This document shows positions 25,682 through 34,100 of a DNA stretch of 40,027 bases, piece after piece (the first letter of the stretch is position 1; each line of letters starts with the position of its first letter). A model generated the notes under the pieces. It did not search any database and had not been told where the DNA came from. It worked only from the letters and a program-made list of their open reading frames with translations. The stretch lies in assembly GCA_024763365.1 (NCBI GenBank), contig JANTFO010000010.1, positions 1 through 40,027 of the forward strand, read 5' to 3'. A program made the position numbers and the translations under genes. Origin of the DNA: Flavobacteriaceae bacterium (lineage in GTDB: Bacteria > Bacteroidota > Bacteroidia > Flavobacteriales > Flavobacteriaceae).

Positions 25682-25733
25682 TATATCTTTGCAAACTAAA
25701 TCCCTATAAAAAAGTATATCTTTGTAAACTAAA
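25682..25733 (+). promoter_or_regulatory. clpP: Tandem duplicated clpP promoter
   Basis: Two 19-bp units, TATATCTTTG(C/T)AAACTAAA, start 33 bp apart (25682 and 25715). Each contains the -7 element TATCTTTG. The downstream unit would start transcription ~15 bp before the ATG, the upstream one ~48 bp before. Confidence 0.75.
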
Positions 25734-25744
25734 ATTATTACAAT

Positions 25745-26404
25745 ATGGATTACGGTAAAGAGTTTAAACAATATGCGACCAAGCACCACGGTATCAGTAG
25801 TATGCACTATGATAAACTGGTGAGCAGTGTGACACCCTACATCATTGAAGAACGACAGCTCAATGTAGCTCAGATGGATGTTTTTTCCCGTTTGATGATG
25901 GACCGCATTATCTTCTTGGGCACCGGCATCAATGACCAGGTGGCCAATATTATACAAGCTCAATTACTCTTTTTAAGCAGTGTAGATTCCACTAAAGATA
26001 TTTCCATCTATATGAATTCTCCCGGAGGTGGTGTTTATGCCGGATTAGGTATCTATGACACCATGCAATTCATCAAACCAGATGTAGCAACTATCTGTAC
26101 AGGTATGGCGGCTTCTATGGCGGCCGTTCTGATGGTTGCCGGCACCAAAGGCAAGCGTTCAGCTTTGCCACATTCACGTATTATGATCCACCAACCTTTG
26201 GGAGGCGCACAAGGACAAGCCAGTGATATTGAGATTACAGCACGAGAGATCTTGAAACTTAAAGATGAGCTTTATCAAATCATCTCCAAACACTCCGGAC
26301 AAAAATTTGAAAAAGTCGCCGAAGATTCCGATCGTGATTATTGGATGAAAGCTGAAGAAGCAAAAGCCTACGGTATGATTGACGAAGTACTTAACCAATC
26401 TTAA
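25745..26404 (+). CDS. clpP: ATP-dependent Clp protease proteolytic subunit
   Basis: A 219-residue ClpP. The catalytic triad is visible: S124 in [11 protein letters not shown]149 in [11 protein letters not shown], and D198 in [14 protein letters not shown]-type strand sequence ([12 protein letters not shown]) and the C-terminal GMIDEVL are as expected. It forms the tetradecameric protease chamber fed by ClpX. It is 5 bp from clpX, so the two are co-transcribed. The usual neighbour trigger factor (tig) is not here; the feo operon lies upstream instead. Confidence 0.97.
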
Positions 26405-31237: not shown

Positions 31238-31403
31238 GGGTTTGTTTATTTATGGTAAAATTAAGAAATTAATTAAAATTCTAACCCATTTAAGATTTAG
31301 ATTATAACAACGTAGATTCAACCACAAATATACATTTGAAACCAGTCATAAAAAAGTGAGATTTATTCAAATTCAATAGTTGCTGAAAATAGTATATAAT
31401 TTA

Positions 31404-32063
31404 TTATTTGTTGTTAAGCCTTATTATAACGTATTGAAGTTGAATGTAAGGTAGAATAAAAGGATTCTCTTCATTCATACTTTCAAATTGATGTTTTTCT
31501 ACAAAATACCCACCTATTTTTAAACCTAATTTATTACCACTTATACCAAAAGCCAATGAATAGGCTCTAAAATCATAACTACCATCTTGACCATAGGCAG
31601 GAATTACTGTATCACCCGTTAATCTAGTGTAGGCAAAATGAGTACTGCTATCCATTAGAGAAAAACCGAGTTGAACAGACAATTCTGTTTCACTTTTCAA
31701 CTCAAAATACTTCTCGGCTTTAAGATGATAATCTACTATTAAAGTTTTAATTGGGTCATTCGAATGGTTCTCTTCAAAATTGTAAGAATCACTATAATAT
31801 AACAAATCATAACGAAAAGATTGCCCCAAACTAAAACGCCAATTGATAGTAGCAGGATTGTAATTTAAAAAGTAGGTTAATGCAGAACCGGATAAGTGTG
31901 CATCAGTATTAGTAACAGGTCTTGTAATATCAGATTTCCAGTTAGGTTTTAGTTCAATAGGTGTAATCCTAAAATCAGGGCCTATATTGACTGTAAATTT
32001 CTCTTGGCTGTATAATAAAGCCGAATATATACAAAAAATACTAAGAAACAAGGTTTTTTTCAT
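31404..32063 (-). CDS. Probable outer-membrane beta-barrel protein
   Basis: A 219-residue protein with a signal peptide (MKKTLFLSIFCIYSALLYSQ). Repeating amphipathic strands follow (INWRFSLGQSFRYDLLYY, TELSVQLGFSL, LAFGISGNKLGLKIGGYFV), ending in YIQLQYVIIRLNN. The pattern fits a small beta-barrel of about eight strands, but I recognise no named family. It lies 62 bp downstream of the frameshifted lipoprotein gene and may share its transcript if the hairpin between them is leaky. Confidence 0.65.
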   Translation of the reverse strand: MKKTLFLSIFCIYSALLYSQEKFTVNIGPDFRITPIELKPNWKSDITRPVTNTDAHLSGSALTYFLNYNPATINWRFSLGQSFRYDLLYYSDSYNFEENHSNDPIKTLIVDYHLKAEKYFELKSETELSVQLGFSLMDSSTHFAYTRLTGDTVIPAYGQDGSYDFRAYSLAFGISGNKLGLKIGGYFVEKHQFESMNEENPFILPYIQLQYVIIRLNNK

Positions 32064-32090
32064 AATTTGATAATTAAAAATTATTAGAAA

Positions 32091-32115
32091 TAAGGGAGGC
32101 TTTTAACCTCCCTTA
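32091..32115 (-). terminator. Hairpin between the lipoprotein gene and the beta-barrel gene
   Basis: TAAGGGAGG and CCTCCCTTA form a perfect 9-bp stem with a 7-base loop. On the minus strand only TTTCTAAT follows, so termination may be partial. Confidence 0.55.
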
Positions 32116-32125
32116 AAATTAATTT

Positions 32126-33329
32126 TTATGGATATTCAATGACATCCGATAGGTACAAATTAAATTTCATATTTAAGTCGTCTTCTGAATAGTTATGGAT
32201 ATTTGTTTCGTTTGTTTCATCTAAAACTTTGGAATATAAAGATTTATTCCCAAAATAACTGCCATCCGAAGATCTGTATTCAATTTGTTTTGTAGAATTA
32301 GCACCATAATAATTATTGATAGGAAAAAAATCTTTTTTCTTTCCTGTGGGCCATGCGTCCGATTCAAAAATTACATTACAACTTACTATGGGGATAGCGC
32401 TATAGCTCCATTTTTGTAATCTCTCAAACACAAAATCAACAGTTATTTCAGTTTGGTTACTCACTTCACTTCTGCTAAATTTTCTTATTAATATTCCTTG
32501 ATAGCTACTCGTTGTATTAACACCATCTCTTGAGCATTCATTATCGGGGTCACCATATCCGTGACATTCCCCATCTGTATAATACCTATATCCTCTTATT
32601 GCCACTTCAGATTTCCCTGCAGCCCATGATTCATAGTGCTTCTTTATGGCCATTTTATCAATGCTATGTTCATAAATGTCATAATCAATAGGTATTGGAG
32701 TGGGTAATACGGTTTGCAAGGCCATTTCTTCATTAATTGAAATAATCCAAACATCATTTTGTTGCGCAAATGTTTCATCCACAACCTCTTCTATAGGTTG
32801 CAATTCACCGTTAGCATCTTCTTGATAACCCACATATTCATCATCTGGTTCTTCAACAACAAAAGGTACTATTACAGGTTTATCAGGGTTAAAAGAGCGA
32901 TTTAGAAAGTTTTGATATTGGCGGTTAAAATCAGGAATATATAATTGCGGATGCCAAATCAATTCCCTCAATATCTTTAAATGCATTAATTGAGCTTTGT
33001 AAAGTACTAATATCATTTTGATTAATGATGGGTATTCCTCTTTCATTTGATGCTGAAATAATATTACGAATTAAAATAGCACTATCATCATTTCGTGATT
33101 TTAATTGTATCATTGGATAAATTGTTTCTAAAAAATCCCTGTTGTTACTATATTTTGATAATACATTTCCTATAGCTAATAAATGTTTATGGGCATATGC
33201 GACTTGTTCCTCATATGATTTATTTTCAATTTTTTCAGAAGTAGGTTCTGTTGTGTTTATATCATCTCTATGGCAACTACTTAGTAGCAAAGTTATTATA
33301 GATAAAATTAATAAATAATGTGTTTTCAT
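32126..33329 (-). pseudogene. Lipoprotein of unknown function, interrupted by a one-base frameshift
   Basis: The track lists two overlapping frames: 33329-32931 (132 residues) and 33046-32126 (306 residues). The first begins with a lipoprotein signal (MKTHYLLILSIITLLLSSC) and reads to GIDL, then runs into seven unrelated residues and a stop. The second, up to its residue 31, is a shadow of the first; from HPQLYIPDFN it reads as coherent protein. Removing one base at the CC around 32954-32955 joins them as ...GIDL-HPQLYIPDF..., a single protein of about 400 residues. No known domain was recognised; the latter part is rich in acidic residues and has PDDEYVGYQEDANGELQPIEE and CHGYGDPDNEC. It is either a recent pseudogene or a sequencing error. 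Confidence 0.8.
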
Positions 33330-33461
33330 TGTTTGTTATATTAAAATTGTTAATCTTTTGTTTTGTTTTCCCCAATTATACTTGGGTTTAACACTCTACA
33401 TTTCTGTATTTCAGTTCTTTAAGGCATTAAACTTAACAAACAAATACATAATGAAAATCAT

Positions 33462-33469
33462 TATCTTTG
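33462..33469 (+). promoter_or_regulatory. Predicted -7 element of the candidate small RNA
   Basis: TATCTTTG followed by CAAA is an exact TAnnTTTG match and the same as the clpP promoter elements. Confidence 0.6.
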
Positions 33470-33470
33470 C

Positions 33471-33541
33471 AAAGCTAAGTCGATGGCTTAGTTACGGAGC
33501 GTCTTCTAAGTGTTACAAATCTTAATGGGGCGCTCTTTTTT
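33471..33541 (+). ncRNA. Candidate small structured RNA
   Basis: About 70 nt downstream of a TAnnTTTG element and ending in a T run. Hairpin 1 is AGCTAAG / CTTAGTT with a 7-base loop (33473-33493). Hairpin 2 (33497-33535) has GAGCGTCTT pairing with GGGGCGCTC using G-U pairs, then a small internal loop and a second helix TAAG / CTTA around a 10-base loop. Six T follow. It contains no plausible ORF, and no gene lies downstream on the plus strand, so a stand-alone sRNA is more likely than a leader. I cannot assign it to a known family. Confidence 0.6.
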
Positions 33542-33556
33542 GTTTTAAGGAATTTG

Positions 33557-33661
33557 TTGCTATGTCATATCTATCCGAATTTAGGTTAAACTTAAATATA
33601 TTACTCATACTCTAAGTATGTTAGTATACTTATTAATATTTAGGTTGGATAGCTATAGCAA
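33557..33661. repeat. Imperfect long inverted repeat
   Basis: The outer arms are TTGCTAT-(7 nt)-CTATCC on the left and GGATAG-(2 nt)-ATAGCAA on the right. Inside lies a separate hairpin, CATACT-CTA-AGTATG (33606-33620), and two copies of TTTAGGTT. It has no ORF; it may be a MITE-like remnant or a structured transcript. Confidence 0.45.
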
Positions 33662-33759
33662 TTCTTTACTCTTTTAAGATATCATTCTTTACTATAACAA
33701 TACTCAAAATTAAATAAAAATTTTTATTTAAAACAAATAAAGTATAAATACTTTACGTA

Positions 33760-33769
33760 GGGGGGGGGG
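33760..33769 (+). repeat. G10 homopolymer tract
   Basis: Ten consecutive G in a strongly AT-rich intergenic stretch, 5 bp after a perfect AAAGTAT/ATACTTT dyad (33739-33754). Confidence 0.9.
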
Positions 33770-33972
33770 TATTAACTGAATGTCAGTTTATTAATTATAT
33801 ATTTAGTGAATAATAGCTAATTATGTGAATAATTGTATTTTTTTACCCTTTTTAATAAATCGGATTAAAATACTTCTATCTAACCTAATATTCTCGTCAA
33901 CTACTCGCAGAGTATACTCATTTTTAAATTTTTGAATGTATAGACTATTTCTTAAATCAACTTCATCCAATA

Positions 33973-34026
33973 TGCTTTAACGACAATGAGTAAGGCTCCT
34001 TTTATAAGTTGTAGGCTACCATCGAG
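33973..34026 (-). pseudogene. Short relic of a second YifB/ComM-like gene
   Basis: On the minus strand an open stretch reads LDGSLQLIKGALLIVVKA. The intact YifB in this window has LDGSLQPIKGALPIAIKA at the same place in its Lon-like domain. Including the residues just before, 15 of 21 positions agree. Stops close the frame on both sides, and the codons differ mostly at synonymous positions, so it is a diverged paralogue fragment rather than a fresh copy. The rest of the gene is missing. Confidence 0.6.
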
Positions 34027-34042
34027 GAATAATCTTTTTCAC

Positions 34043-34073
34043 AAAAAAACCCGCAGCTTAAAAATTGCGGGTT
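34043..34073 (-). terminator. Terminator of the coaX-to-ppiD gene cluster
   Basis: AACCCGCA and TGCGGGTT form an 8-bp stem with a 10-base loop, followed on the minus strand by seven T. It begins 28 bp after the ppiD stop. Confidence 0.9.
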
Positions 34074-34100
34074 AGTCAATATATGATAAAAATCTATTTC

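Follow-up and report, generated by a model that had tools for sequence, protein, structure and literature searches.

A candidate short intergenic RNA unit behind a palindromic promoter element in a lineage-specific insertion of a Flavobacteriaceae genome

The DNA analysed here, referred to as the window, is a stretch of 40,027 nucleotides (contig C10) from a Flavobacteriaceae genome assembly of 2.0 Mb that is divided among 149 contigs and is 84% complete. The ppiD gene of the window, which neighbors the RNA unit described below, has its nearest named relative in a Lutibacter sp. MAG, with 65% protein identity. In congeners, comM is found directly after ppiD, with only ~100-200 bases and a terminator between the two genes. 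In the window, comM and ppiD are separated by a 2.9-kb insertion (31240-34100) that is missing in the congeners, and that consists of a gene for an outer-membrane-like orphan protein (31404-32063), an orphan lipoprotein gene on the minus strand, and the RNA unit together with ~500 bases at 25-26% GC. The lipoprotein gene, which is divergent from the RNA unit, is interrupted by a frameshift that leaves two overlapping frames, 32931-33329 and 32126-33046; the split represents either a true frameshift or an assembly error. The C-terminal part of the lipoprotein is without a relative in 200 other genomes of the family. Direct repeats flanking the insertion, as would mark a transposon, were not found. 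Two other features were observed in the surrounding DNA, an imperfect 26-nt inverted repeat within the gene-free stretch (33581-33606 and 33863-33888, with 256 bases between the copies), and a run of ~10 G residues at 33759-33770 amid very AT-rich DNA that may be a slippage site or a weak point of the assembly.

The RNA unit begins with TATCTTTG (33462-33469, plus strand), a -7 element of the TAnnTTTG type that is followed by CA to give the extended form TATCTTTGCA, of which the window holds two copies. The flavobacterial TAnnTTTG box sits at positions -12 to -5 (PMC9723704), which places the predicted +1 near G33474 and gives an RNA of ~68 nt. Reading of the sequence located no TTG -33 element at the usual distance from TATCTTTG. 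TAnnTTTG is not enriched in the window (62 occurrences against 60 expected), so the octamer alone proves nothing. The element belongs to TAnCTTTGCAAAGnTA (33462-33477), which is palindromic almost throughout; the minus strand carries a TAGCTTTGCA box, and there the mirror-image -7 element TAGCTTTG (33470-33477) faces the divergent lipoprotein gene. TAnnTTTGCA is thus present on either strand, at 33462-33471 and 33468-33477, and because of this near-perfect symmetry transcription may start both ways, with the leftward transcript directed to the lipoprotein gene. The palindromic -7 core, TATCTTTGCAAAGCTA, reads as TAnCTTTGCA on both strands.

The predicted transcript (33474-33541, plus strand) consists of two hairpins followed by a run of T residues. 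The 5' hairpin (33473-33493) has 9 bp, including two G-U pairs, and a GAU loop. The 3' hairpin (33496-33536) is bipartite, with an outer helix of 10 bp and an inner helix of 4 bp that together include four G-U pairs, and it encloses a 10-nt loop, TGTTACAAAT (33511-33520). Its GC-containing stem runs directly into T6 (33536-33541), the arrangement expected of an intrinsic terminator. A simple terminator scan overlooked this hairpin-T6 unit, probably because the 10-nt loop and the inner bulges exceed the limits of the scan. All of these parts, from TATCTTTG through the 9-bp and bipartite hairpins to T6, lie where the earlier note had placed them. Its description of a free-standing unit also holds, in that a sigma-A-type -7 box and a terminator bound a non-coding-looking sequence, and downstream of it the plus strand carries no gene of ordinary size. 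The note did not anticipate that the locus lies in an insertion missing from the congeners. An ATG at 33483, inside the predicted RNA, opens a frame that a stop closes after two codons.

The 68-nt RNA has a predicted folding energy of -21.9 kcal/mol (z -3.78), and a 78-nt version has a fold z of -3.2. Each hairpin is significant by itself, with z values of -3.1 for the 5' hairpin and -3.7 for the 3' hairpin. The opposite strand folds at only -9.7 kcal/mol (z -1.4), a gap between the strands that is largely due to the six G-U pairs, and that assigns an RNA gene, if there is one on one strand, to the plus strand. The earlier note had taken the G-U pairs as a sign of selection at the RNA level; the pairs do favor the plus strand, and the claim of selection itself was not borne out, as the searches described next found no homologue in which compensatory changes could be counted.

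Searches of Rfam at gathering and at permissive cut-offs returned no real match; the best sub-threshold hit was rli56, at 24.1 bits against the 47 needed. Membership in an Rfam family, flavo-1 included, for which the earlier note had proposed a search, is therefore not supported, with no family reaching its gathering cut-off. Blastn searches with 131 bases against 40 relatives, plasmids, and phages recovered only pieces of ~17-40 bases, mostly from promoters or coding starts. A pattern combining a Fur-like box, TTTGC, and a T-run revealed no site with an equal organisation in 201 family genomes, and searches of viral contigs with two patterns and with both neighboring proteins produced no match. 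A structure model, R1, was built from the single sequence and used to search all 7 genus genomes, 400 family genomes, and 398 order genomes, where the family and order draws overlap and were subject to stricter filters than the genus search. No convincing homologue was found in any of the three sets. All R1 hits, from the genus search as well as the two draws, were read in their genomic setting; those considered and rejected were terminators of ordinary genes (G136, G115, G293, and G713), coding DNA (G202 and G571), and the rimP leaders of two congeners (G003 and G002). With no homologue found, compensatory changes cannot be counted and there is no sign of selection. Missing homologues are common in real small RNAs, since 27 of the 49 intergenic sRNAs of Bacteroides thetaiotaomicron that possess a transcription start site and a terminator are strain-specific (PMC7366714), and the negative searches thus neither prove nor refute a function.

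The rimP leaders of the two congeners merit separate comment, because they share with the RNA unit a TATATTTGCA box, a terminator-like hairpin with a T-run, and a hairpin of the form AA.TC.ATGG.TTA (GCTAAATCAATGGTTTA in one of them). This hairpin differs from the first hairpin of the unit by a G-C to A-U change that would be compensatory. Unlike the RNA unit, the rimP leader is a cis-element located before rimP-nusA, and its first hairpin is followed by a GGGGAC/GTCCCC hairpin; the unit is not followed by a gene, and its second hairpin is unrelated. A conserved structured element 5' of rimP has already been reported for Flavobacteriaceae (PMC9723704). The genome studied here has its own rimP leader on another contig (G000:C28), away from the RNA unit and less alike to it than are the leaders of the congeners. 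Given this separate and less similar leader, the unrelated second hairpin, and the cis-acting position of the leader, the match is read as a convergence of promoter and hairpin and not as homology. The unit was likewise rejected as a rimP leader element in its own right, as it is not directly upstream of rimP and lacks the GGGGAC/GTCCCC hairpin.

The features of the unit could have come together by chance, with a hairpin that happens to accompany an AT-rich octamer of -7-like sequence in decaying DNA and no transcription as a unit. In 400 simulated 40-kb windows generated with a second-order Markov model, a promoter and terminator that were equally strong and at a similar distance occurred in 4%, and an equally good 78-mer fold after any TAnnTTTG occurred in 19.5%. 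These frequencies, the chance-level abundance of TAnnTTTG, and the fact that the unit was singled out after a survey of the whole window all favor coincidence. On the other side are the fold z of -3.8 and the strand asymmetry of the unit, the exact placement of T6, and the extension of the box to TATCTTTGCA. Ranked by the fold downstream of each of the 62 TAnnTTTG sites in the window, the unit comes third, with two tRNA genes above it and another one below. A looser scan found four such units in the window against 1.0 expected, one of the four being the tRNA-Cys gene. The case against chance is suggestive and not overwhelming, and we regard coincidence as unlikely, yet deserving of serious weight. 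A somewhat similar weight falls on the possibility that the RNA is a by-product of a bidirectional promoter, in which TAnCTTTGCAAAGnTA would drive the lipoprotein gene leftwards while the hairpin and T6 cut the rightward transcript short, so that the 3' end of ppiD and the intergenic DNA are insulated, and the RNA would have no regulatory task. The -7 sequences on both strands agree with this arrangement, as do the position of the lipoprotein start (33329) downstream on the minus strand and the lack of homologues for both the RNA and the lipoprotein. An insulator, however, has no need of the 5' hairpin (z -3.1), the minus-strand leader would reach ~136 nt, and the palindrome could itself be due to chance; this explanation is judged improbable, a little more so than simple coincidence.

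Two further explanations concern sequences that overlap the promoter element. A 24-codon frame, MKIIIFAKLSRWLSYGASSKCYKS (33452-33526, plus strand), begins upstream of the predicted transcription start and could encode a small protein or a leader peptide, or could be what is left of the 5' part of a decayed gene, with the hairpin and T-run ending its message. Its ATG at 33452 lies in a typical flavobacterial context and obtains a start-context score of 4.9, where genes average 5.5, in a model trained on only ~35 starts; no more than 2.2% of the ATGs across the window, real starts included, score as high. The 24 codons are open from the ATG, and the leader is similar to the one in front of the divergent gene, as seen in inverted repeats I2 and I7. 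If the RNA starts at 33474, this ATG lies outside it, and the sequence upstream of 33452 offers no good -7 box. Furthermore, the stop codon falls within the terminator hairpin, such that translation would disrupt the hairpin; the peptide has no family match; and attenuation lacks a downstream gene on which to act. In view of these points, and of the few starts on which the score model rests, a coding origin appears quite unlikely. The other overlapping sequence is a palindrome, CATAATGAAAATCATTATC (33447-33465), that agrees with the Escherichia coli Fur box in 17 of its 19 positions, where 0.03 matches with at most 3 mismatches are expected in the window. The match would suggest an iron-regulated sRNA resembling RyhB, repressed by Fur through this palindrome over the -7 box, and an E. 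coli-like Fur box over the promoter is a likeness to RyhB and other Fur-repressed sRNAs. In the genome, however, E. coli-type boxes are at control level (5 against 4 in the reversed control), whereas the Riemerella anatipestifer-type box, ATTTAGAATTATTCTAAAT, is enriched (22 against 6) and by sequence marks putative Fur-type sites. The latter box is the one given in the main text of the study on R. anatipestifer Fur, the abstract of which prints an E. coli-type box (PMC5609570). Since the genus is enriched for another Fur-type box, it probably does not use the palindrome as a Fur site, and the palindrome also overlaps the gene-like ATG AAA ATC context; the unit differs further from RyhB in offering neither homology nor evidence of a target. 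Regulation by Fur of this kind is thus very improbable. As a separate observation, the R. anatipestifer-type box ATTTAGAATnATTCTAAAT is commoner than its reversed control in each of the 7 genus genomes.

The explanation that we favor, tentatively and with somewhat less than even confidence, is that the unit specifies a species-specific intergenic sRNA of ~68 nt, for which promoter, fold, and terminator are features of the sequence and transcription is inferred from them. In favor of such an RNA are its intergenic location, its strand-specific fold, and the completeness of the unit, in which a -7 box, a 5' hairpin, and a terminator are all present. Its rank among the tRNA genes for downstream folding, the ~4% of simulated windows with an equally strong promoter and terminator, and the precedents in B. 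thetaiotaomicron and Flavobacterium psychrophilum also count for it. Arguing against it are the absence of a -33 TTG and of any homologue, loop-mRNA duplexes at background level, and the AT-rich DNA (25-26% GC) beside a broken orphan gene, where non-functional remnants are to be expected. In the proposed scheme, sigma-A RNA polymerase would start near G33474 from TATCTTTG and stop at the intrinsic terminator at 33541, and the 5'-terminal hairpin would shield the end of the RNA. The longest open stretch, the unpaired 10-nt loop UGUUACAAAU, could then pair with mRNA in the absence of Hfq, as other short intergenic sRNAs of Bacteroidota do, though pairing by the present RNA is conjecture. No obvious homologue of Hfq or ProQ has been found in Bacteroides (PMC7366714). 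The earlier note had likewise proposed that the loop could pair with targets. Duplexes predicted between the loop and the start regions of 35 window genes were at best no better than background, and the only near match to the loop region in the rest of the genome has 3 mismatches and lies in the sense of the loop itself rather than its complement. A more elaborate version, in which a newly arisen and very short sRNA gene arrived with or arose in the lineage-specific 2.9-kb insertion, shares its palindromic two-way promoter with the gene for the surface lipoprotein, and regulates this gene, or other genes, via the 10-nt loop, seems to us a long shot.

As a plausible species-specific sRNA of an ordinary kind, with a function that is not readable from sequence, the unit can be compared by description with small RNAs already known in the phylum. 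The strain-specific intergenic sRNAs of B. thetaiotaomicron, belonging to a "high-confidence" set that includes GibS (PMC7366714), resemble it in having their own promoter (a predicted one in the unit), an intrinsic terminator, and no annotated gene. GibS itself differs, being 145 nt long and genus-conserved with an open 5' seed (PMC7366714), whereas in the present candidate, of ~68 nt and with no known target, structure begins at the 5' end. In Flavobacterium psychrophilum, 45 independent non-antisense RNAs have been described, 18 of which are strongly structured (PMC9723704). These Rfp RNAs, such as Rfp18, share with the unit the bacterial family, an independent transcription unit, and strong predicted structure; Rfp18 differs, again by description, in being genus-conserved, in having at least 3 stem-loops, and in affecting protease mRNAs (PMC9723704). 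If transcribed, the unit would add another unannotated strain-specific sRNA to a phylum with few characterised examples, and would provide an example of a short sRNA unit inside a lineage-specific insertion. The kind is already known, and the unit leaves known mechanism unchanged.

Two observations on similar sequences were made outside of the insertion. At 25684-25724 of the window, two TATCTTTG boxes 33 bases apart precede a gene at 25745, and these may be tandem promoters. In the rimP leader across Flavobacteriaceae (G000:C28 near 7413 (L149); L143-L165), for which two loci checked had no Rfam match, a TATATTTGCA-like box is followed after 20-30 bases by a GAGGGGAC-loop-GTCCCCTC hairpin, then by TTTTTATA and rimP-nusA.
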